This document shows positions 1 through 19,862 of a stretch of 61,677 nt of DNA, piece by piece (positions within the stretch are counted from its first letter, which is position 1; every line of letters begins with the position of its first letter). Location of the stretch: IMG/VR virus record IMGVR_UViG_3300038327_000229, positions 1 through 61,677 of that record; one strand, written 5' to 3'. Made by a program: the position numbers and the translations under genes. The notes below the pieces were generated by a model. It was not told the DNA's origin, ran no database searches, and was given only the letters and a program-made list of their open reading frames with translations. The stretch comes from a virus.

Positions 1-3000
1 ATAGAACGGGCGAATAAACTGAAAGCCGAGCAAGATCTCCTGACTCCAGAGGAGAAGGCAGCACAGAGGGCAAGCGAACGCGATCTTGTGGCCGAACATC
101 GCGAAAGGGTTAAGCGTGGCGAGGCTCTTCCGGAAATAGAGCAGCTGCGGCAACATAAGAAAAGACGACGAGAAGCGCAACAAGCCGCAGCCCAACAAGC
201 CGCAGCCCAACAAGCCGCAGGAGAGCAAGTCGCAGTGCAAAAAGCTGCAGCCGAGAAAGAGCTAGCCAAGAAAGCCGCAGCAAGCGCAAAGCGAACAGCA
301 ACAACAGCTACGGCAGCTACAGCGCGACAGGCTGGCTCAGTGGGAGCCTCATCAAGTTCCCCAGCCAGTGTGCAACAGGCTAGCTCAACAAGAACTTCAT
401 CTTCCCCAGCCTCACCGAGCTCACCAAGAGTAGTAGACAATCGAACTCCAGTAGCTGAACTTCCTATAGTAGATAGACAAAAAGCCTTACGGCAAAGACT
501 CAACAGTCTCGGTCGTGGATCCTCATCAAATCCGCTTAGATTTCTCTTTGATACTGAAGCAACAGATGTAGGATTCGCGCATAGAGAGAGGATCATAAAC
601 AAGGGCAAACTTGTAAAATATACTGGAAGAGATGGAGATCTGGGTACTAGGAGTGGGAATAAACCTATCATTCATGGGCAAACACAGTCTCAGAGAGCAG
701 TAGGAACTCAGATGCTACAGTTCTACGGAGGAACTGCTGATGAGATAGCAAACCAGACAGACACTATTTTTCAGAGACATATGGAGTTAGACATCCCTGA
801 CGCGATAAAAAGGGATCTAGGCAAGAGTCTTAGTTTTGATCTTCACGGCCGTGACGGCGAGGTTAAAAATACCTTTAACGCAGAACAAATACATCGAATC
901 ATGACTGACTCCAGTGACAGTCTTAGTGCTGACGATCTAGCAGCCAGAAAGGCGATGGGAGACCCAGGGGGACCTCAAGGAAAATTTCATATAACAGACC
1001 CAAAAGTATTAAAGAATATTACAGCAAGCAGATTGACAAATCCCACGGCCGGAATGGCCGGCGTTGGAGTTAATCTTGTAAACCATACTCTCAATCAAGT
1101 CGTAGGTAGAAGCGTATTTGAATCGAAGTATGGTCGTCCGGATACAGCTAGCTCTCAAAAGTTTGTCCAAGACTTTTTGAATAGAATGGTAAAGCTCCAG
1201 AAAGATGCTCCGGAAGGCGTCAGGCCACAAATAGAAGCATGGAATATTAACTATGACTTGATAAAAGCAGCAGAGCAAGTCGACATGTATGGGAAAGATT
1301 TAAAAATTGGGTTCCAGAATAAAATGCAATCTGCTAAAGATGTATTTAAGGCCCTATTCATTGGAACCGATGCACATAGCGCCGACTATCTAATAAAAGC
1401 AGTTGACGCAGCGGACAAAATAAAGGAAATAAGTTTTTGGAGATTAATAAACGATAATCAATATAATGTCCATAGTATAAATCACGAAGAGGTTGCAGCT
1501 GCGTTAGAAAACGGCCAAACAAAAGCACAGATACAGGACGCCGGAATAGAAGAGTTAAGGACTTCTAAAACTGGAGTTAAGACTAAATATATAAATCGCA
1601 ATACTGCGCTAAGAAAATTAGCTGATGATGTTGGAGGACAGAAGAACAGAGCGGCGCTAGCGGATGAATTTTATAATCGAATTTACGAAGGCGAAACTTA
1701 TAGTCGTAATGAGATTGAATCACACAAGAAAGGGAGAATAGGGCAGATAGTCGACGATGCAGTATCTATGACCCTAAAAATTAGGGAATCCTCTATCTCT
1801 CGAGACGGCAATATGATCGAAGCGTTGAGAAGGGGATCGAATTTATTGGCTAGTCAAGATGGTGGTGTGGATATCGCCAATAGAATATGGAGACCTACAG
1901 CAAAAACTTCCGGAATAATGGGTTTCGGGGTGGGTAAAGACGCCGAGTTCGCAGAAGGAACCGTCAAACAAATGATGTACGTGCTTGATAATTCTACGGG
2001 ATTTGATGGCGTTGGTGGATTCTCTCAAGGTGGATCGGGTAGAACAGTGGCGACCGGAAAGGGTGGAGCTATAGGGTCTCTGATATACGCTAAAGAGACA
2101 TACATGGAGACACATTCCGATAGCCAGCTATCTAATCATATGCGTGGATTATTCGAGAAGATAGATAAGGCAAGCAGGATAGGAGGGGCTGCCCACGATG
2201 CGAGTATAGATACTCGTCAAATGCACGCTATGATCAGCAGTGGAGGTATACTCGACGATATGGGGACACACGGGGCAACTACTGATATGATCGAGTTTAA
2301 CGGGATACTTACCGATGCTCGAGCTGCAGCAAGCTTTGAGGCAGGTGTAGATAGGTGGATGGTCAATGCCGACTTTGCTCCGCAAGGAAGCGGCGCTTCA
2401 GGAACAAGTAGCAATATACTCCAGGAAATTATTCCGGAGCCGCAAACAGCTGCTAATGCTGGCGACTTCTCAGGCAGAGGGCCACTGAATAGCGTAGAGC
2501 CTTTGGCGGGCAGACCTCGTGGATTAAAGGGAAGAGGAGGTGTTCTTGCCGGCGGCATATTGACGCTTGCAGGCTTAGCTCTTGTCGGCAATAGGAATGG
2601 TGGAATAAAACAGCCTGGGTCACAGTATAACTCGATTGAAGGAATGTCTCCTTCAGGAGATCCGCTTATCCATTCCTTTGGTTCAGGTAATGATAGCTTT
2701 GCTTCTCAGGCTATAACTAATTTAAAATACGGGACCGGATATGGTAGCAACACTCTTAGATCGTCCATGCTGGGTTATCGTGGAGACCGACTCAGGGACA
2801 TTCTGTTAGGTAGATCTTCTTTTGACGATTATACAAATTCTTCTGAGAAGGGCACCCTTGTACATAGTATCATAGAGGCAGAGTATTTAAAAAGAGACAT
2901 AGCCCAGTCTAGCGAGCATGTTGTACATAGCCCCGAGCTAGACGTAATGGGTCACATCGACTTGGTCTTGAACTCAGGAGTCCCTCTAGAGATAAAGTCT

Positions 3001-3588
3001 GTTGAAGATTTTGAAGCATTGGAAAACCTTAAGTCCCCCAAAGATGCGCACGTCTCACAGGCTAATTTCTATGCATATGCCCTGAAGCAGCCATACGCAT
3101 TAATTGGGTATGCTGCGAGAAATGATCCTAAAGGTAAAATAAAATATTTTAAAGTAAATACTGATATAAAGCGTGTGAGAGATGATGTTGAAGCCGTAAG
3201 AAGAATGATGGCAGACTTACGACGTCAAGGTTATAACACACAAAACTATTCTGCATATCAAGCAATGAAGGACGCGCGCTCTAGATTCACCCAAAATAAA
3301 TATCAGCAGAATGCTGCAGGCGCAGGTGCAGGGTTACCATCGGGGATGATCCCAGCGCCAGAAGACTATGGAGGGCATTCCGCTATAAAAGGACTAGGCG
3401 ATTATGGTAAATGGATGAAGAAGCTAGGATGGAGGCAAGAGAACAAGACACATCTCACTAATACACAGCAGTTTAAAAGCAAATCTAGGATAAGAGATCA
3501 GGGAAAACACGCAGCGTTGCATAGCAATGATGCGTTAAAATATAACGCACGTATCAGTCACCCTAATGGGTCTAGGCAAATAGCATAG
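1..3588 (+). CDS. Partial giant virion-region protein: coiled coil, DnaQ-like exonuclease signature, PD-(D/E)XK nuclease
   Basis: The frame is open from base 1. The first possible start, GTG at 88, has no ribosome binding site, so the gene probably begins upstream; at least 1195 aa are present. Numbering from the first codon, residues 1-110 are charged and Ala/Gln-rich, likely coiled coil. Around 184-186 lies D-T-E, and around 415-419 lies N-x-x-Y-D; these match motifs I and II of DEDD (DnaQ-type) exonucleases, but a convincing motif III is not seen. A Gly/Ala/Leu-rich hydrophobic helix lies near 847-864. The C-terminal domain is a clear Cas4/RecB-type PD-(D/E)XK nuclease: H955, D987 in GHIDLV, E997-x-K999 in LEIKS, and Q1020-x3-Y1024. 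It heads a run of hydrophobic protein genes just before the terminase. I infer a virion-associated DNA-degrading or DNA-processing protein. The nuclease call is firm, the exonuclease call moderate, the virion location inferred. Confidence 0.8.
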   Translation: MERANKLKAEQDLLTPEEKAAQRASERDLVAEHRERVKRGEALPEIEQLRQHKKRRREAQQAAAQQAAAQQAAGEQVAVQKAAAEKELAKKAAASAKRTATTATAATARQAGSVGASSSSPASVQQASSTRTSSSPASPSSPRVVDNRTPVAELPIVDRQKALRQRLNSLGRGSSSNPLRFLFDTEATDVGFAHRERIINKGKLVKYTGRDGDLGTRSGNKPIIHGQTQSQRAVGTQMLQFYGGTADEIANQTDTIFQRHMELDIPDAIKRDLGKSLSFDLHGRDGEVKNTFNAEQIHRIMTDSSDSLSADDLAARKAMGDPGGPQGKFHITDPKVLKNITASRLTNPTAGMAGVGVNLVNHTLNQVVGRSVFESKYGRPDTASSQKFVQDFLNRMVKLQKDAPEGVRPQIEAWNINYDLIKAAEQVDMYGKDLKIGFQNKMQSAKDVFKALFIGTDAHSADYLIKAVDAADKIKEISFWRLINDNQYNVHSINHEEVAAALENGQTKAQIQDAGIEELRTSKTGVKTKYINRNTALRKLADDVGGQKNRAALADEFYNRIYEGETYSRNEIESHKKGRIGQIVDDAVSMTLKIRESSISRDGNMIEALRRGSNLLASQDGGVDIANRIWRPTAKTSGIMGFGVGKDAEFAEGTVKQMMYVLDNSTGFDGVGGFSQGGSGRTVATGKGGAIGSLIYAKETYMETHSDSQLSNHMRGLFEKIDKASRIGGAAHDASIDTRQMHAMISSGGILDDMGTHGATTDMIEFNGILTDARAAASFEAGVDRWMVNADFAPQGSGASGTSSNILQEIIPEPQTAANAGDFSGRGPLNSVEPLAGRPRGLKGRGGVLAGGILTLAGLALVGNRNGGIKQPGSQYNSIEGMSPSGDPLIHSFGSGNDSFASQAITNLKYGTGYGSNTLRSSMLGYRGDRLRDILLGRSSFDDYTNSSEKGTLVHSIIEAEYLKRDIAQSSEHVVHSPELDVMGHIDLVLNSGVPLEIKSVEDFEALENLKSPKDAHVSQANFYAYALKQPYALIGYAARNDPKGKIKYFKVNTDIKRVRDDVEAVRRMMADLRRQGYNTQNYSAYQAMKDARSRFTQNKYQQNAAGAGAGLPSGMIPAPEDYGGHSAIKGLGDYGKWMKKLGWRQENKTHLTNTQQFKSKSRIRDQGKHAALHSNDALKYNARISHPNGSRQIA
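179..223 (+). repeat. Three tandem 15-bp repeats inside the first gene
   Basis: A 15-base unit encoding Gln-Gln-Ala-Ala-Ala occurs three times in a row, the last copy with a changed final codon. It forms part of the Ala/Gln-rich coiled-coil-like N-terminal region and looks like slippage expansion. Confidence 0.8.
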
Positions 3589-5402: not shown

Positions 5403-6170
5403 ATGCAATATAACCGACCAATAGATTCTCATGGATTCCAATTCATATCAACTGCATCTGACCATGAAAATATTGGTATAGGCAATTTAGTTGCCGACGT
5501 AACTCTGGCAATAACCATGGAGAGTCTTGGCGCCGGGCTCATAGGTAGACAAGGTATGGGCTCAGGGGGTAGGCCTCTGATGGGCATGATTCCTGGGATC
5601 TCGCCAGCAGGCTTTGAGAAGGGCGCCGGAAGATCTCTTCTAGAGTCAATAAATATAAGGGCAGGGACATGGAGGGGTACTCCTGGGTGGGGCCAGGGTG
5701 GTGGAGTACAAGGAGTTGTTACTGGATTTTCCCCGACCCATACTAATGTACAGCGTGTTTCATTAATACCAGGAGTCAGCGTCACTGGAAAGGGTGGTGA
5801 AAAGGCCTTACTTAACGCGTATAACGCAACTGCTGGTAGTCATAGGGGCCTTTGGGATACAATTGCCAGACCTAGAGATATAGCCAAAATGGGCTTTGGC
5901 TTGGGTCTTAAATCCTTATCCTCTGCATGGTTAATAAATGATCTCTTTGGTATGGGTTTTTCTGCTGCAAGTGGAGCGATACAAGGAATGTCTACATACT
6001 CTTATGACAGAAGGAACCAGGAGACGCCCGCGGAACATGACCTTGGTGACGGCTTCGCTCAGACAAGAGCGAGCTTCACACAAAGGCAAACTGCCATGGC
6101 CGCTATCCATAACTCACAAATGAACACCAGAGCAGCAATGGGTAACGAAGCGACGTTCATGCATGCCTGA
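5403..6170 (+). CDS. Gly-rich protein of unknown function, 255 aa
   Basis: No family recognised. The start lies one base after the stop of the previous gene (TAATATG) with only a weak ribosome binding site, so translation is probably coupled. The sequence is very rich in Gly and Met (residues 30-120), with a hydrophobic segment near 185-200. The C-terminus overlaps the start of the terminase gene by 8 bases. It belongs with the two preceding genes by position and composition. A virion or head-associated role is a guess. Confidence 0.55.
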   Translation: MQYNRPIDSHGFQFISTASDHENIGIGNLVADVTLAITMESLGAGLIGRQGMGSGGRPLMGMIPGISPAGFEKGAGRSLLESINIRAGTWRGTPGWGQGGGVQGVVTGFSPTHTNVQRVSLIPGVSVTGKGGEKALLNAYNATAGSHRGLWDTIARPRDIAKMGFGLGLKSLSSAWLINDLFGMGFSAASGAIQGMSTYSYDRRNQETPAEHDLGDGFAQTRASFTQRQTAMAAIHNSQMNTRAAMGNEATFMHA

Positions 6171-8202
6171 TAAAAAGAAGAATGAGATTAGGATTGAGGG
6201 CGAAAAGCCCATTAAAATAGGCATTGATTTTGGTGAAAAATATAGGCCAATGGATGACTATAAGGGATCCGACTATAAGCCTATGCTTGGTCGAGATTGT
6301 CATTTCTGCAGAAAGTGTATAGACTACTATCAAGATATGCATAGCAAGGGCTTTACTTCCGAACCATTTATACCTGCCTGTGACGGCGATTACCGACAGC
6401 TAGCTAAGAAGATGAAAAATCAAGGCTTATCTGACGAAGAGTTCGAGAACTATAAAATGCTACAAGATCCAGTTGCTTGGGCTAAGTTTGAATTTGACTG
6501 GGAGGCTAGATGGTATCAGAAAGAGGTCATGCGATGTTCATCTCAGTTTAAAGCCATTCGCGCAGGACGTCGTGTCGGCAAAACTGAAGCGATGAGTGTT
6601 CTTGCTCTTTGGAAATTGTTTACTAACGGCGGCCTTACTGATAGGCAGTTTGAAATACTTGTGCTTGCGCCATATCAGCCCCAAGTTGCAAAGATATTTG
6701 ATACTATGCGTGATTTTATAGGCAGATCCTCTACACTAAATATGCCAGGCATGATTAAGAGGAATGTCCTCAACCCACAAATGATTGAATTCAGCTCAGG
6801 TGGAGTTATTCGAGGCTGGTCTTCTGGTGCACATTCGGGCGCAAAATCCGATAAGGTTCGTGGTCAGGACGCAGATTTTATTATCATGGACGAAGTTGAT
6901 TATATCAATGACAGCGACATCGAAGTGATCATGGCGATAATGGCTTCTCACCCGACTTGCGAACTCATCGTCTCATCTACGCCTACTGGAATACGTAAAA
7001 AACTATATAACTGGTGTTGTGACAAGAGTCAAGGCTTTAAGGAGTTCTGGTTTATATCTGCGGAATCTCCTAGTTGGACTCCAAAAGTAGATCATATGTT
7101 TAAGCAGAACTACTCAAAGACTGGATACGAACGAGAGTTTCTTGCTGAGTTTGGTGACGAAGCTGAGGGTGTGTTTAGAAGCGAGGACGTTAACGCGTGC
7201 CTGGCTGACTACACTTATGAAGATTGCATCCCGCACGCAGAGTCTAAGTATGTTATAGGAGTAGACTGGGGTAAGACTACAGGTACGCACATAGTTGTTA
7301 CTGAGGCCATGAACGTAGATGGTCGACTCATGTATAAAACAGTAGACAAACATATAATACGAACTCAGGAATTTCAACAGATAGAAGCTATTAAGAAAAT
7401 AATGGAGCTTGACAAAGTATGGGGTAATCAAACTGCATACATCTATGTAGATGCTGGCTATGGACACGTCCAAGTTGAGATGATGTGGAAATATGACATG
7501 GATTATCCTAACGAACACACCAACTATAAAGAGCGTGTCAAGCCCATGACTATGAACTCTAATATAGAGATAACCGATCCAGTCAGCGGTATGCCTATCA
7601 AGAAACCAGTAAAACAGTTTATGGTAGATGCGTCATGTCGAACAATGGAGATGAAGCAGGTATTAATGCCTGTAGATGAAGATACGACCACAAGGATCGT
7701 ACCTAGCGAGATACCCTTCGCCAACATAGGTATTGTCCAACAGATAAGAGCATTCAAGATAGTTAAGTATAGTCCAAGCGGCGTACCTACGTATTCTCAA
7801 GACTATGAGCACACTGTTACCGCATGGATGCTATGTATTATGGGTCATATTTTAGAGTTTAGTGATATAAAAAAGATAGAACACGTTATGGATATTGCTT
7901 ATTCTATTGGTGTAGGTAGTGACCATGATAACGACTCACCATTTCCTGAGTTGAGTAATATCACTGAGCGTCAAATAGATTTAGAAGAGGCGAAGAAATT
8001 TAGTAAGAAAATGCAAAAAGATCTAAAGCCAGAGAAAAGGACAGATGAAGATAAAGAAACATTAGTAGGAGGAAACGACATAGGAGTGTATGTCGCTAGG
8101 AGACAGGCCACTAACAGATCTAGAGGAGATTCAGTTCAAGGTAGAACAAGATATCACGGTAACACTCCTAGGGGCAACCGGTTTGGTCGAGGTAACATCT
8201 GA
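6163..8202 (+). CDS. terL: Terminase large subunit (DNA packaging ATPase and nuclease)
   Basis: The packaging motor that pumps DNA into the prohead and cuts it. The ATPase domain shows Walker A GRRVGKT at residues 135-141, Walker B FIIMDE at 239-244 (D243, E244), and the coupling motif SSTPTG at 271-276. The RNase H-fold nuclease shows D368 in GVDWG, D430 in YVDAGYGH and a third acidic site near D547. At 679 aa it is somewhat longer than usual. An extra N-terminal cysteine cluster (C46, C49, C52, C73) could bind zinc, and the tail after residue 615 is basic and polar. The ATG overlaps the upstream gene. The stop forms TGATG with the next start, so the genes are coupled. No small subunit is recognised beside it. 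Confidence 0.97.
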   Translation: MPDKKKNEIRIEGEKPIKIGIDFGEKYRPMDDYKGSDYKPMLGRDCHFCRKCIDYYQDMHSKGFTSEPFIPACDGDYRQLAKKMKNQGLSDEEFENYKMLQDPVAWAKFEFDWEARWYQKEVMRCSSQFKAIRAGRRVGKTEAMSVLALWKLFTNGGLTDRQFEILVLAPYQPQVAKIFDTMRDFIGRSSTLNMPGMIKRNVLNPQMIEFSSGGVIRGWSSGAHSGAKSDKVRGQDADFIIMDEVDYINDSDIEVIMAIMASHPTCELIVSSTPTGIRKKLYNWCCDKSQGFKEFWFISAESPSWTPKVDHMFKQNYSKTGYEREFLAEFGDEAEGVFRSEDVNACLADYTYEDCIPHAESKYVIGVDWGKTTGTHIVVTEAMNVDGRLMYKTVDKHIIRTQEFQQIEAIKKIMELDKVWGNQTAYIYVDAGYGHVQVEMMWKYDMDYPNEHTNYKERVKPMTMNSNIEITDPVSGMPIKKPVKQFMVDASCRTMEMKQVLMPVDEDTTTRIVPSEIPFANIGIVQQIRAFKIVKYSPSGVPTYSQDYEHTVTAWMLCIMGHILEFSDIKKIEHVMDIAYSIGVGSDHDNDSPFPELSNITERQIDLEEAKKFSKKMQKDLKPEKRTDEDKETLVGGNDIGVYVARRQATNRSRGDSVQGRTRYHGNTPRGNRFGRGNI

Positions 8203-10136
8203 TGGGTATATTCTCTAAAAAACCAAAACCCTTTGAAAGAGAGCGGAGTCTTACTGAAGATCCTCCTAAGGGGTCGCCAGTAATTAATACGAATATAGAG
8301 GACGAAGCAGAAAAGGAAGTGCAGGAGATATTTAGTGATATAAAAGATAATATAATGTTATCTAATGAGTTGCTTAACTTATTAGATGAGAAGTGTAGGG
8401 CAACGCATGTCCCTGTAGATCCTATCGTGCAGGACGTAAGGGCCGCCGTAGCAAGAAAAGATCCATCGGAAGCGGATGGCGCAAGAATAAGTTTTCATTT
8501 ATTTCTTACTGCAGTAAAAAAGTATGAGCAGGTTCAACTTAATTACACTCTAACTATTTCTGAATCGATGACAGGTAATCCTAGTTTAGACTCTACTACT
8601 ACTAGGAGATTTAAATACAGGATTATTCATGGAATTTCCGATAATGATCTTTTAATGTTTGATTCAGTCTATTTATTGAATTATGCAATACATAAATTCC
8701 AAGATATATTTAATGTGCCAGAGATACTTAAAATATCTCCACCATCAGAACATCCAGAAGGAGCTGCGTATGGTGCAATGAAATTAGTCATTGCTATTGC
8801 TTTTGCCTCTGCGATAGATGTGCTAAACAAGGAGTTGATTCAGGCAATTCGTAATGTTGGTCGTGGTTCATCATCATCTTCTGTTTCTTCATCTGCCCCA
8901 GAAGAATTTACATTTAGTAGAATGGATGAGTTAGCCTTAGAGAAAATATCTCAAAATGATTATAAAATAATATTAGATTATGTGATTGGATATATCTATC
9001 CATCTTTAGATCCAAAGTATGATCTCTGGATAAACTATGTTGGTCTTAGGCAATCTAGAAATACATCGGTAGATATGTATAGGTATTATCCTACATATTC
9101 TCATGAAGCTAATATAAGACTGAATCTTGGAGACAAGTTACCTCGATCAGGCAATGAAGATTATGTATCAGACCATTTGAAGGATGAGTTTCTAGCAGCC
9201 TTTAAAAATAATTTTAAAAATATGTGTGCTACAACATCTCAATCCATGAGATTCAATTCTAATGAACAAAGAGCTCTTATAAACAACGTAGCACAAACTA
9301 GCGCCTATCGAGTTACTAAAGATCAGATATGCTGCTTATTCAGAATAATGGCTAAGCACGGTATCTCAGATAAAAAAACTATTAAGCTAATTAAGGTAGT
9401 TTTAAGAGCCGCGTCAAAAACGCTCTCTGTAAATTTATCCGCCAGGTACGCAAAGAAAACTGTTGCACAGCTATCTGGTGCAAATGCAGATTTTATGTAT
9501 ATAAAACATATAAAGCATAGGGTGATGGGCGTCATAGGAAGGATAAATGATTCTTGGTTTTCTAAAATGAATACACTTATAATGGAAAATCTTTATGTAA
9601 AATGCAAATTATTCCATGATATGTTTAAATCTATGTTAGATTTTGTCGAAGATATTGTTAGTGAAATAGGATCTAATGAGACAGATAGCGAAAAACAGCA
9701 GTCTATCATAGTATGGAGAAATATTGAGACCGTACAGACGAAATGGCAGCTAAGAGGACTAAGCCATATGGACATGATATTATCCTCTATATTAGAACAG
9801 TCTCTTGATGAATGCTATAATATGTCTGACGATGTTGTAGATAATATGATAGATGAGGTTGTAGGTGGGTTAAGTATACCGTCGAATCAGTATACAATTG
9901 ATATTCCTGATGATTTACGAGAAAGGTACTTTTCTGACAATAAGCCGATAAGAGTTAGTCAAAGCTCCAGCCTCTTTGGCTTGAGCAATACTACGACTAT
10001 TCCGGCTATTGATAAGTTTAATCAGCCAGAAACATCAGAAGAAGTGATAAGGAACATACTTAAGACTTGTAAAATGGAAATTAGCGACGAAGAGATTAAA
10101 AAGATGTTAAAGGAATCAGATGGGTCTTCTCGGTAG
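8202..10136 (+). CDS. Unrecognised 644-aa protein between terminase and portal
   Basis: Starts on the terminase stop (TGATG) and overlaps the portal start by 17 bases, so it is firmly part of the packaging and head operon. The sequence is largely helical in appearance and AT-rich in codon use. It has a Ser-rich linker near residues 225-237 (SSSSSVSSS) and charged ends. I see no catalytic motif or membrane segment. Position suggests a head or portal-associated structural protein. It could be a neck or internal head protein; no family assignment is made. Confidence 0.7.
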   Translation: MGIFSKKPKPFERERSLTEDPPKGSPVINTNIEDEAEKEVQEIFSDIKDNIMLSNELLNLLDEKCRATHVPVDPIVQDVRAAVARKDPSEADGARISFHLFLTAVKKYEQVQLNYTLTISESMTGNPSLDSTTTRRFKYRIIHGISDNDLLMFDSVYLLNYAIHKFQDIFNVPEILKISPPSEHPEGAAYGAMKLVIAIAFASAIDVLNKELIQAIRNVGRGSSSSSVSSSAPEEFTFSRMDELALEKISQNDYKIILDYVIGYIYPSLDPKYDLWINYVGLRQSRNTSVDMYRYYPTYSHEANIRLNLGDKLPRSGNEDYVSDHLKDEFLAAFKNNFKNMCATTSQSMRFNSNEQRALINNVAQTSAYRVTKDQICCLFRIMAKHGISDKKTIKLIKVVLRAASKTLSVNLSARYAKKTVAQLSGANADFMYIKHIKHRVMGVIGRINDSWFSKMNTLIMENLYVKCKLFHDMFKSMLDFVEDIVSEIGSNETDSEKQQSIIVWRNIETVQTKWQLRGLSHMDMILSSILEQSLDECYNMSDDVVDNMIDEVVGGLSIPSNQYTIDIPDDLRERYFSDNKPIRVSQSSSLFGLSNTTTIPAIDKFNQPETSEEVIRNILKTCKMEISDEEIKKMLKESDGSSR

Positions 10137-12294
10137 AATAGCGTCAGTGTTCTCTACTACTAAACCAGAGCAAGAGGATCTTAGGCTTGTCCGCAAGACT
10201 AAGCCTTCTAGCGTAGAGTCTACTGTTAAGGAATCTCCGCGACAAGCTGTATCTACGCTCTACTATAAAACGAGCCTAACAGCAAGAGGCTACCCCAGTC
10301 TAGGGGGAGACGGCAACTATATCACTCCAATGTACAACCTTGGGGAAATAGGCAAGACGCTAGATGTAGAATCGTTCTTTGCTGCTTCTGTTAGAAGGCA
10401 CAGAGAGCTATCCATGAAAGAAGGATGGCATCTGCACGGTAAAGATAAAGAAGCTATAGCGTATGTAAAAAAACGATTTGAAGAGATAGAGCTTATAACT
10501 GGCGAACCTATCTCTGCTATTGTAAGAGAGCTTTTAACTAACTTGATTGCCTACGGCAATGCTATCCTTGTAATAAAGAGAGACCCTCTTAGGTCTAGTG
10601 GTTCTCCTATTAGGATGTTCGGTAAAACGATGCAGCCTATCTCTGGATTATATCCAGCAGATCCTACTAGTATGGCAGTAAAAAAGAATGACTTTGGCAG
10701 GCCAGTAGAGTGGAAACAAAAGATATGGGACTCTGAGAAAACTAGAAAGTTCAGGGCTTCCGACGTTGTACACTTCCATTTGGATAGAAAGTCTGGCTTT
10801 ACCTTTGGTACACCATATATAGTGCCTGTTCTTGAAGACATCAGAGCTTTGAGAAGGCTAGAGGAACTAGCCGAGCTAGTAACCCACAAGCATACATTCC
10901 CTCTATTCCATGCCAAGGTAGGCTCAAAAGATAAGCCAGCTGGATATATAACATCTCCAGATGGACAGACACTCTCAGAGGTAGATGTTATTGGAGCACA
11001 AGTAGATGCATTGCCTCCAGAGGGCGGGCTAGTCACCTCTGAAAGAGTAGAGATAAACATGCTTGGCACAGAAGGCCAGGTATTAGATTTAGAACCCTAT
11101 CTCTCTCACTTTGAAAGTAGAGTTCTTGGCGGCCTGAGGTTATCTGGAATAGACCTAGGCAGAGGCGATACTGCGAATAAGGCTACTGCGCAGACGGTTA
11201 CAAAGAATTTAGTCGATGCATGTTCAGAAATACAGAATGTATTTTCTGAAATGTTCACCGCCAAGATAGTTGATATCATACTATTAGAGGGTGGATTTAA
11301 CCTAGTCAGCGATGTACGGGTCTCTCTGAGATTCCCAGACATAGATAGAGAAGAGGCTAGAGCTCATCAGAACCATGGTATTCAGCTATTTATGCAGAAT
11401 GCTATAACAGAGGATGAGCTAAGAACGGACTATCTCAATCGAGAACCGTATGCTGATGGAGATAGAAAGAATACTTTCCACGAGCTATATACTAAGCCAT
11501 TAGCCGAGATTGGTGCAATGAACGAACAGGGCCCAGGCAGTTCACAAGGATCCGCCAACACCGTCACCAATAAAGCTCGCCCGACTAACCAGCATGGTAC
11601 TGCCACTACTAAAAAATCAGTTGCTCAGAATAGTCTGATGATGAAAGAGCTATTCAATCAGTTCTCTTACTCATGGTCAGAAATGTGCGAGGATATCTGT
11701 GGCCTTAGCGCTAGAAACGGCAAGTACAATAAGGCCACTAGGTCTAATGATATAAAGAAAATATTAATATTAAAAACAGATGCAATGATGTCTGATGCAA
11801 AAAAGTACTTATTGCCTGAAATAGAGAGCGGAGCAAAGGAAGCACGCAAAGATATACATACCAATAAGCTAGTATCTAAGGACGATATCAGCCTATTTTT
11901 GTCTAAGCACATACGTATACCGTTGATAAAGCTCAATCGTAAGGCTATGATAATGTTGAAGATAGATTTAGATAATGAAGTAAAACTTGACTTAGACCCG
12001 GCTAAGGCGTCTAGCATCTTTGACGCATTAAAAGTTGAGTTAGATATGATGACAGTCCAAACCGCGGACTTTGCTTATAAGTACGGATACATGACTACGT
12101 TACAGAAGGCTGGTAGGAAGAATATCAGAATTATGTATAATAGCATTAGCGAAGATGGAACACTTGATCTAGAGAAAGAAGTGGTTATGCCGATTGCTTC
12201 GGTAAGCAAAAGAGATGTTTCTGGTCCACATATACGGTTAAATACCACATGTGTGATAGATGAAGATATAAATATCAACAAGGGAGATGAGTAA
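10120..12294 (+). CDS. Portal protein
   Basis: Forms the dodecameric ring at one capsid vertex through which DNA passes. The 724-aa sequence has the typical portal core. Residues 90-330 include a wing-region helix followed by GLYPADPTSM and FRASDVVHFHLDR, then FGTPYIVPVLEDIRAL. The stem and crown helices follow (RLSGIDLGRGDTANKATAQ, about residues 340-360). A polar linker near 455-505 precedes a helical C-terminal extension of about 200 aa. Start choice: ATG with AGGA upstream, inside the end of the previous gene. Placement directly before the prohead protease agrees. Confidence 0.9.
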   Translation: MGLLGRIASVFSTTKPEQEDLRLVRKTKPSSVESTVKESPRQAVSTLYYKTSLTARGYPSLGGDGNYITPMYNLGEIGKTLDVESFFAASVRRHRELSMKEGWHLHGKDKEAIAYVKKRFEEIELITGEPISAIVRELLTNLIAYGNAILVIKRDPLRSSGSPIRMFGKTMQPISGLYPADPTSMAVKKNDFGRPVEWKQKIWDSEKTRKFRASDVVHFHLDRKSGFTFGTPYIVPVLEDIRALRRLEELAELVTHKHTFPLFHAKVGSKDKPAGYITSPDGQTLSEVDVIGAQVDALPPEGGLVTSERVEINMLGTEGQVLDLEPYLSHFESRVLGGLRLSGIDLGRGDTANKATAQTVTKNLVDACSEIQNVFSEMFTAKIVDIILLEGGFNLVSDVRVSLRFPDIDREEARAHQNHGIQLFMQNAITEDELRTDYLNREPYADGDRKNTFHELYTKPLAEIGAMNEQGPGSSQGSANTVTNKARPTNQHGTATTKKSVAQNSLMMKELFNQFSYSWSEMCEDICGLSARNGKYNKATRSNDIKKILILKTDAMMSDAKKYLLPEIESGAKEARKDIHTNKLVSKDDISLFLSKHIRIPLIKLNRKAMIMLKIDLDNEVKLDLDPAKASSIFDALKVELDMMTVQTADFAYKYGYMTTLQKAGRKNIRIMYNSISEDGTLDLEKEVVMPIASVSKRDVSGPHIRLNTTCVIDEDININKGDE

Positions 12295-14916: not shown

Positions 14917-16377
14917 ATGAGTCAAGATAGGTTAATTGGCGTTGACGAAGATGCTATTGAGCAGAACTTCGATGAGGGGCAAAAGAATACGATTCTTCGC
15001 CTTGTTGAAGATACTGAGAATGGTATCACCAACGCCGTAGACGGTGCTTTAGCTGAAAAGCTAGAAGAAGAAGGGTTGGATAGTCAGGCTATTAAAGCGC
15101 TCAAGCGTTTTACTGACGAACAACCAAAGAAACGCGAATTCGATGATAAGTTTGACCGAATGCATAGCATTTGGAAAAACAATGGTGTGCTGCCTGGCTC
15201 ACCTTCTCATCGGTTTAGTTTAGATGACTTGATCCAGGCTGACCAGAAGCGTAAGTCTTCCTTTGAGGCTGGCAAAATCAAGAAGGATGAGTTTTACGAT
15301 ACGCAGTTTGCGTTTGAGCAGCCAATGCTCATACCAAAAGTTGTTTCTCAGATTGTTAGGGATGCGATTGAACCAACAATTGCTCTTACTCCCCTGCTTC
15401 AGAGGATTAACTTTCAGGTTGGAACTAGTTTAACCTTCCCGGCTATGGGCGCATTCGCTGCTGCTGATATCCCAGAGGGTGGGGAATACCCAGAACAGAC
15501 GATGGAATTCGCAGGTCAAGTGACTGCGACCATCGGAAAGTCGGGTGTTGCCGTCAAGTTCACTGATGAGATGCTTAGGTACTCCTTGTTTGATGTAATG
15601 AGTATGCATCTGCGTGCAGCAGGTCGTGCCCTGATTCGTCATAAGGAGCAAAAAGTTGCCAACATGATTACTACTGCTGGAACCACATATATAGATAATA
15701 CGGCTAGCTCTGGTGCTTTAATGAGTACAGGCCGTGGTATCGATGGTGTTAGGAATGGTACGATTACCATCGAAGACATCTTCCGTATGTACGCCAGCAT
15801 GGTCGATGATGGTTATGTGCCAAACGCAATCATCATGCATCCATTTGGATGGCTTACCTTCGCACTTAACCCCCAGTTGCGTGCATTTGGATTTGCCAAC
15901 AACGGCGAAATGTTCCAAAACTATGCTGGTAGCCCCGGTTCAGGTGGAGAATTCCGTGTTGGAGGATTAAATCAGGAAACTAAGTTGACTGATCCTTCTG
16001 CTATTGCTACTACTTCGTCAAGGCTTCCGGCAGGATTCCCTGCTTCACTCAACATCATTGTTAGCCCTTTTGTCCCCTACGACGCTACTAACAATAAGAC
16101 TGAGTTCTGGATGGTCGACACTAATGAGCTCGGCGTTCTCGTAGTAGACGAAGATGTTGTGACTGAGGAGTTTGATGATCCGGCACGTGATATTCGCAAG
16201 ATCAAATTGCGCGAACGTTATGCTGTCGAAAACATCAATAATGGTCAAGCCATTAGGACTGCTAAAGGCATAGTCATTGATAAGTCGATAGATCCTGAAT
16301 CGACTCCAGTGCTTCAATTTGGTACTGGTGCCGTGACTACTGCCCTCTACACTGGTGGTGCTTACAGTCCTAGCTAG
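14917..16377 (+). CDS. Major capsid protein, HK97 fold
   Basis: Main shell protein. 486 aa with a helical charged N-terminal region (residues 1-125, possibly cleaved by the protease upstream). The HK97-fold core follows: the hinge QPMLIPKVVSQIVRDAIEP, then LTFPAMGAFAA, IPEGGEYPEQ and VAVKFTDEMLRYSLFDVMS (around 210-230). The A-domain segment is DGYVPNAIIMHPFGWLTF. Strong ribosome binding site AAGGAG. Codon use is the least biased to rare codons in the window. It is followed by a strong hairpin that would separate it from weaker downstream expression. Confidence 0.93.
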   Translation: MSQDRLIGVDEDAIEQNFDEGQKNTILRLVEDTENGITNAVDGALAEKLEEEGLDSQAIKALKRFTDEQPKKREFDDKFDRMHSIWKNNGVLPGSPSHRFSLDDLIQADQKRKSSFEAGKIKKDEFYDTQFAFEQPMLIPKVVSQIVRDAIEPTIALTPLLQRINFQVGTSLTFPAMGAFAAADIPEGGEYPEQTMEFAGQVTATIGKSGVAVKFTDEMLRYSLFDVMSMHLRAAGRALIRHKEQKVANMITTAGTTYIDNTASSGALMSTGRGIDGVRNGTITIEDIFRMYASMVDDGYVPNAIIMHPFGWLTFALNPQLRAFGFANNGEMFQNYAGSPGSGGEFRVGGLNQETKLTDPSAIATTSSRLPAGFPASLNIIVSPFVPYDATNNKTEFWMVDTNELGVLVVDEDVVTEEFDDPARDIRKIKLRERYAVENINNGQAIRTAKGIVIDKSIDPESTPVLQFGTGAVTTALYTGGAYSPS

Positions 16378-19186: not shown

Positions 19187-19392
19187 AATTTTTAACTTCG
19201 TTGCTTCCGTTTAGTGGAGCAGAATCTAAGAAATCGCAGGCCTTTGTATTGGCCGCGATCCTTATCGTAACAGGCAAGCTTTTTGGTTTATCGGAAGAAG
19301 CTATGAAAGATACATTGTATCTTACAATTGCTTACCTCGGAGGCCAAGGCTTAGCAGACTTCGGCAAAGAAGCAAAAAAGGAGTCTAAGTAA
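19183..19392 (+). CDS. Holin-like small membrane protein, 69 aa
   Basis: Starts by ATGA overlap with the previous gene. Two hydrophobic segments, residues 19-37 (QAFVLAAILIVTGKLFGL) and 43-58 (TLYLTIAYLGGQGLA), end in the charged tail FGKEAKKESK. Size, two helices, and a Lys-rich C-terminus fit a small holin that would open the inner membrane. No endolysin is seen in this window. The stop overlaps the start of the next gene (TAATG). Confidence 0.55.
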   Translation: MKFLTSLLPFSGAESKKSQAFVLAAILIVTGKLFGLSEEAMKDTLYLTIAYLGGQGLADFGKEAKKESK

Positions 19393-19862
19393 TGGCAACT
19401 ACTGGAGCAAAAACTGCTGAATTTGAAAGAATACTTCTAAATTATTTGTTTGATGATGGTGCTGCGCCGATGGCTGGCACAGAGAATACTGATCTTTACA
19501 TTGGGCTAGTTACAGGCGATCCTGCTGTAAATGATAACGCGGCATCAGCCTGGCATAGCACCCATGAAGTTGCTGCCTCGGCTGGTTATAGTAGAGTACG
19601 ACTTACTGCTGCTTCTATGAATGCTGCGTCCACTGCGGCCGGCGATCCCTTTGCAACAACTATTGATAACGTCAATGAGATTAATTTTGGCACGTCTACT
19701 GTTGCATCATGGGGTGATGTAACTGGATTTATCATTGCTACCAGTAGTGTAATAGCTGAAACTGGTACATACTACTATGGTATTTTTGATACTCCAAAGA
19801 GCGTGGCAGATGGAGATTCAGTTAGGATAACGGCTGGTAACCTATCAATAGAAGAGCGTTAA
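19392..19862 (+). CDS. Fibre or tail-associated structural protein, 156 aa
   Basis: The pattern LYIGLVTGDP near residue 30, AGYSRVRLT near 65, INFGTSTVASWGDVTGFII at about 97-115 and TYYYGIFDTPKSV fits a widespread small phage structural family found beside fibre genes. It opens the first fibre and adhesin cassette. Translation is coupled to the holin-like gene by TAATG. Exact virion location is unknown. Confidence 0.6.
   Translation: MATTGAKTAEFERILLNYLFDDGAAPMAGTENTDLYIGLVTGDPAVNDNAASAWHSTHEVAASAGYSRVRLTAASMNAASTAAGDPFATTIDNVNEINFGTSTVASWGDVTGFIIATSSVIAETGTYYYGIFDTPKSVADGDSVRITAGNLSIEER

Follow-up and report, generated by a model that had tools for sequence, protein, structure and literature searches.

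The window analysed here, a linear IMG/VR fragment of 61,677 nucleotides (IMGVR_UViG_3300038327_000229), begins inside a gene for a large protein predicted to carry two nucleases (Table 1). The reading frame is open from base 1, and the 5' end of the gene thus lies outside the window. On two contigs from other metagenomes (L002 and L003), the same ORF was found complete, at 99-100% identity. Residue 1 of the window protein corresponds approximately to residue 606 of the L002 copy, and the start codon of the full-length gene overlaps the stop codon of a 254-aa gene. The reconstructed gene order is as follows: putative TerS, the nuclease protein, three hydrophobic proteins (B, C, and D), TerL, an unknown gene, portal, a protease-like gene, and capsid. 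The genes share one strand with TerL, portal, and capsid, and touch or overlap. TerS was assigned from position, size, and conservation, with no database match. The location of the nuclease gene beside packaging genes, pointed out in the initial annotation, is also kept in distant phages.

Two further genes of these contigs were recognized. Within the head-gene region of the window, positions 19392-19862 matched Pfam Gp80 (podophage GP4 fibre protein; E 2.6e-15), and in L002 a B12-dependent ribonucleotide reductase (L002:3-1646, + strand; phrog_367, E 4e-125) lies just upstream of the putative TerS.

Table 1. Positions of the genes, predicted domains, and motifs discussed in the text (window coordinates unless a contig is given).
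Feature	Position	Strand	Remarks
Two-nuclease protein, ORF	1..3588	+	5'-truncated by window start; C-terminal 1195 of about 1795 residues
Full-length copies, 1795 aa	L002:2688-8075; L003:997-6384
HAD-like domain, N-terminal extension of the same protein	L002:3399-3986	+	upstream of window start; D-x-D-S-T, T, K, D
Predicted DEDDh 3'-5' exonuclease domain	511..2286	+	aa 171 to about 762; alignments A5, A7; fold from homologue L096
Exonuclease motif I, D184-T185-E186	550..558	+	alignments
Exonuclease motif II, W414-N-I-N-Y-D419	1240..1257	+	alignments
Exonuclease motif III, H732-D-A-S-I-D737 (H732-x4-D737)	2194..2211	+	absent from initial annotation
Hydrophobic helix, possible single membrane span	2536..2589	+	aa 846-863, between nucleases
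PD-(D/E)XK domain, RecB/Cas4/lambda-exonuclease type	2737..3237	+	aa 913-1079; H955, D987, E997, K999, Q1020, Y1024
Hydrophobic protein B, 184 aa	3598..4152	+	conserved C-terminal tail, ends GDNFGPF
Hydrophobic Gly/Ala-rich protein C, 411 aa	4166..5401	+	
Hydrophobic protein D, 255 aa	5403..6170	+	tail TQRQ..A...IHNS...TRAAMGNEA in all groups compared
Terminase large subunit (TerL)	6163..8202	+	
Portal protein	10120..12294	+	
Major capsid protein	14917..16377	+	
SbcD-like phosphoesterase between TerL and portal	L005:9924-10817 (KLEB27-3 gp012); L004:2677-3537 (MTATph1)

Domains of the two-nuclease protein

The predicted domain order of the full protein, as shown by sequence and models combined, is a HAD-like domain, a DEDDh exonuclease, a hydrophobic helix, and a nuclease of the Cas4/lambda-exonuclease fold; each domain is a member of a known superfamily. 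The initial annotation had proposed that two nucleases are joined in a single protein with a hydrophobic stretch between them; motifs, conservation, and structure models bear out the pairing, and the hydrophobic stretch is present.

The six active-site residues of the C-terminal domain lie at the positions first reported. This domain matched phrog_1706 (E 2e-13; PHROGs label 'CRISPR/Cas system associated') and the PADLOC Cas4 models (E 5e-6 to 8e-5). Among eight homologues, GxxD, E-I-K, and Q-x3-Y were present in all eight and the upstream H in seven, L097 being the one without it. It was also the best modelled part of the window segment in AlphaFold (pLDDT mostly 70-87). When model residues 743-909, which correspond to window aa 913-1079, were compared by VIA-align, the matches included Cas4 SSO0001 and the Cas4 of the Cas4/Cas1/Cas2 complex (both Z 12.4), LHK-Exo (12.1), lambda exonuclease (10.8), and MGME1 (10.4). 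Cas4 proper holds an Fe-S cluster with four cysteines; there is no cysteine in aa 913-1079, so the domain is not an Fe-S Cas4. Thus, of the earlier description as a 'Cas4/RecB-type nuclease', the fold and the active-site residues stand but the Cas4 cysteines are absent, and 'RecB/lambda-exonuclease-like' is the safer name for what sequence and model suggest.

A second, DEDD-type nuclease had been proposed from two motifs, D184-T185-E186 and N415-x-x-Y418-D419, and both were confirmed at these positions. Comparison of homologues, recommended at that stage as a check for a conserved third motif, revealed the pattern H-x-[AS]-x-x-D at aa 732-737, in which H and D are invariant; it falls outside residues 170-600, the interval then proposed for structure prediction. 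GRIGQIVDDA, our first guess for motif III, was unconserved and was dropped. An alignment of 15 relatives from all groups (about 18% identity; members 15-29% identical to the first member) contained six invariant columns: D, E, G, D, H, and D. Five of these are the catalytic residues D, E, D, H, and D, which define the DEDDh class, and the window protein has motif I (D-x-E), the D of motif II, and motif III (H-x4-D), all in order. All 947 ORFs of 200 aa or more in the collected loci, 682 of them distinct, were scanned with a crude ordered three-motif pattern; of its 14 matches, 13 were proteins at this position. Because of the invariant columns and the specificity of the pattern, the motif set is more than chance. 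Whole-profile comparison of the two groups of relatives gave a weak match; its three best local matches (P 0.0038, 0.0064, and 0.034) each cover one catalytic motif, aligned with the corresponding motif of the other group, and follow the motif order.

The DEDD part of the window segment modelled poorly (mean pLDDT 48), and a homologue with a deeper alignment, L096, was therefore chosen. Its AlphaFold model, built on the 15-sequence alignment, reached pLDDT 76 and pTM 0.76. In a VIA-align comparison with the PDB, the best 50 entries were all DEDDh exonucleases, and 104 chains scored at Z of at least 8. The DinG exonuclease domain and RNase T (both 11.9) were followed by DnaQ (11.6), epsilon (11.2), ExoI (11.1), and TREX2 (10.8), with oligoribonucleases and others also among the best 50. 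Foldseek with the same DEDD model returned RNase T as its top match, at an E of 0.5, below significance. The RNase H-like fold expected by the initial annotation was thus obtained in a homologue but not from the window protein's own poorly modelled DEDD part, and for the window protein the fold rests on homology. The insertion between motifs II and III, about 310 residues, is longer in the window protein than in L096. Taken together, motifs and homologue model support a DEDDh 3'-5' exonuclease domain in the window protein, with predicted activity.

Upstream of the window start, the N-terminal part of the full protein appears HAD-like. The motif residues D8, D10, T77, K148, and D161 (alignment A8) occur in order in three lineages and are invariant in L002, L011, and L006; the Pfam match is weak (0.078). 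L015 and L096 have no HAD-like domain, and their proteins begin near exonuclease motif I. A 3'-phosphatase acting in DNA-end processing is a candidate role for this domain. The helix between the nucleases has a hydropathy of 1.6 over 19 residues, borderline for a membrane span; across the family the corresponding values range from 0.7 to 1.7.

Relatives of the gene and its position

Homologues were gathered two ways, via the terminase and via the C-terminal nuclease profile, and every collected locus was scanned with profiles of TerS, TerL, D, and the exonuclease. Of 36 distinct IMG/VR contigs in which both TerS and TerL were seen, 35 carry a DEDDh protein between them; the count includes many close relatives, not independent of one another, and 15 sequences had seeded the exonuclease profile. 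The exception, L031, keeps TerS, D, and TerL without a DEDDh protein. As the alignments showed, almost every relative retains the predicted catalytic residues of both nucleases. An exonuclease between the terminase genes is thus conserved in many large phages from the environment and has apparently not been described before. A jumbo-phage survey, in its section on virion maturation, and the polyvalent-protein paper (PMC5512222), in the available part, mention neither the two-nuclease chain nor a conserved DEDDh gene flanked by TerS and TerL.

The architecture at this position is highly variable. The PD-(D/E)XK domain is fused in 10 of the 35, which constitute the window's own family, and proteins with this second nuclease span 906-1796 aa. 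A large second group (888-1311 aa) combines the DEDDh domain with an extended central region, a hydrophobic helix, and a tail that hardly varies. The simplest form, L025, has 427 aa, comprising DEDDh and helix (Pfam DNA_pol_B_exo1, E 8e-8; PHROGs, E 2e-10); besides this protein, the contig carries a phosphoesterase-like gene immediately ahead of TerL (8907-9941). Two separate contigs (L033:2078-6110 and L085:3865-7495) have the DEDDh gene broken into two overlapping frames, at different places between motifs II and III, as a frameshift, a sequencing error, or decay could produce.

A tblastn search of about 50,700 phage records with the window, L015, L025, and L081 proteins found no match; the L096 protein gave one weak match, to a phage exonuclease. 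The nuclease-profile search of genome contigs yielded no confirmed case, and PDB sequence searches returned nothing relevant.

Among cultured phages, Acinetobacter phage ME3 encodes ME3_11, a protein with a C-terminal helix and a domain resembling exonucleases (phrog_192, E 5e-5). Directly before it lies ME3_10, a 'head completion' nuclease like T4 gp4, with a TnsA-like domain (Tn7_TnsA-like_N, E 5e-14). ME3_11 resembles the window protein in its DEDDh-like N-terminus, its C-terminal hydrophobic helix, and its location two genes before TerL; it differs in its length of 529 aa, in having no PD-(D/E)XK domain, and in a motif II of N-x-x-F-E instead of N-x-x-F-D. In Bacillus phage KLEB27-3 and Moorella phage MTATph1, TerS, the D tail, and small hydrophobic genes are retained, but the profile search found no DEDDh protein at this position in either. 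KLEB27-3 has a 257-aa helix-and-tail protein without a nuclease.

The C-terminal tails of these proteins are much better conserved than the remainder. In group-2 exonuclease proteins the last 36 aa are 72% conserved versus 32% overall, in B the tail is 74% conserved versus 44%, and in D 46% versus 24%. The end of KLEB27-3 gp006 resembles the group-2 tail in the absence of any nuclease; the window protein does not have that tail. Such tails would suit attachment to a shared partner, for example scaffold or portal.

Several known systems invite comparison. With the DEDDh 3'-5' exonucleases (RNase T, DnaQ epsilon, ExoI, TREX1/2, and the DinG exonuclease domain), the window protein shares the five catalytic residues, the motif order, and, by homology, the RNase H-like fold; it differs in the stretch of about 310 residues that separates motifs II and III, in the fused second nuclease, and in its location between TerS and TerL. 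The likeness to the RecB/Cas4/lambda-exonuclease branch (Cas4 SSO0001, LHK-Exo, lambda exonuclease, and MGME1) lies in the fold and in H, D, E-x-K, and Q-x3-Y. Unlike Cas4, the window domain has no cysteines, hence no Fe-S cluster, and is part of a larger protein, and no cas1/cas2 or recombination partner occurs near the gene. The T4 gp4 'head completion' nuclease is likewise a PD-(D/E)XK nuclease tied to head and packaging genes, and its type occurs beside the ME3 exonuclease. However, gp4 belongs to a TnsA-like family, the window protein is far larger, and neither it nor its full-length copy matched Tn7_TnsA-like_N at E up to 1.

Possible roles in packaging and delivery

A DNA-degrading enzyme encoded between the terminase genes presents a puzzle, as it would be made just as heads fill with DNA. 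We infer, with confidence just short of even, that the protein is a late, membrane-associated nuclease that is loaded into the virion and delivered with the genome. The proposed order of events is as follows: the protein would be made late and loaded into the prohead along with its hydrophobic partners, their conserved tails being a possible loading signal. It would then exit the virion with the DNA and, at the cell membrane, degrade DNA ends, 3'-5' by the DEDDh domain and probably 5'-3' by the other, the latter being the direction of degradation by lambda exonuclease. Likely targets would be host DNA, resident competitors, or defence intermediates. The nuclease would be cargo on a conserved helix-and-tail scaffold, with the second nuclease and the HAD domain as lineage-specific additions.

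Delivery is favoured because variable enzyme domains on a helix-and-tail scaffold, missing in some relatives, fit a delivered effector. In its favour we also count both nuclease folds, the invariant DEDDh residues, the kept TerS-TerL position, the late-gene operon, and the better-conserved C-terminal tails. Polyvalent phage proteins, thought to be packaged and injected, offer a published parallel (PMC5512222). They too are large multi-enzyme proteins among the late genes of portal-terminase phages; however, the available part of their description presents no DEDDh plus RecB-type architecture, and virion packaging of the window protein is a prediction. Counted against delivery are the borderline helix, the missing group-2 tail in the window protein, and the location inside the terminase pair, which would be equally expected of a packaging factor. 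A more specific version, possible although we lean against it, would make the exonuclease part of a conserved, hitherto undescribed delivery module with its three hydrophobic partners: a membrane-associated DEDDh enzyme, in some lineages fused to a nuclease of opposite polarity, would be loaded into the head along with those partners by way of C-terminal tails, leave it with the DNA, and act in a complex that destroys DNA ends at the site of entry.

The main alternative, in keeping with the location between TerS and TerL, is that the protein processes DNA for packaging or head completion, trimming overhangs or clearing branched DNA for TerS/TerL, or acting in head closure; the helix would then anchor the nuclease at the prohead assembly site, with no injection. 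Such a role is conceivable, if in our estimate doubtful. ME3_11 adjoins a nuclease of the T4 gp4 type, and the DNase activity of T4 gp4 is reportedly required for packaging (PMC7824862). Moreover, KLEB27-3 and MTATph1, which have no DEDDh protein, carry an SbcD-like phosphoesterase between TerL and portal. Yet the exonuclease is missing from those two phages and from L031, all of which keep TerS, D, and TerL; this type of packaging is therefore possible in its absence. Nor does a packaging role call for a membrane helix, a HAD domain, or such variation in size.

If instead the enzyme broke down host DNA or recycled nucleotides late in the infected cell, its place in the operon would be accidental. 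The ribonucleotide reductase gene of L002 would suit that role, but the TerS-TerL position is kept in lineages without recognisable shared replication genes nearby, and free DNA degradation during packaging would damage the phage's own genome; we regard this explanation as improbable. Least probable of all is that the nuclease domains are inactive and serve only as DNA-binding structural parts. The incomplete PD-(D/E)XK site of L097 and an irregular motif III in L095 are in keeping with inactivity, whereas the metal-binding residues are otherwise the family's most conserved positions, which is hard to explain without catalysis.

Should the nuclease travel in the virion, many uncultured large phages would carry an undescribed anti-host or anti-competitor weapon; should it act in packaging, there would be an extra DNA-end processing step beyond the terminase. 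Delivery and packaging are distinguishable in ME3, a cultured phage. The ME3 record declares homology to Bacillus phage 0305phi8-36, the virion proteome of which has reportedly been published.
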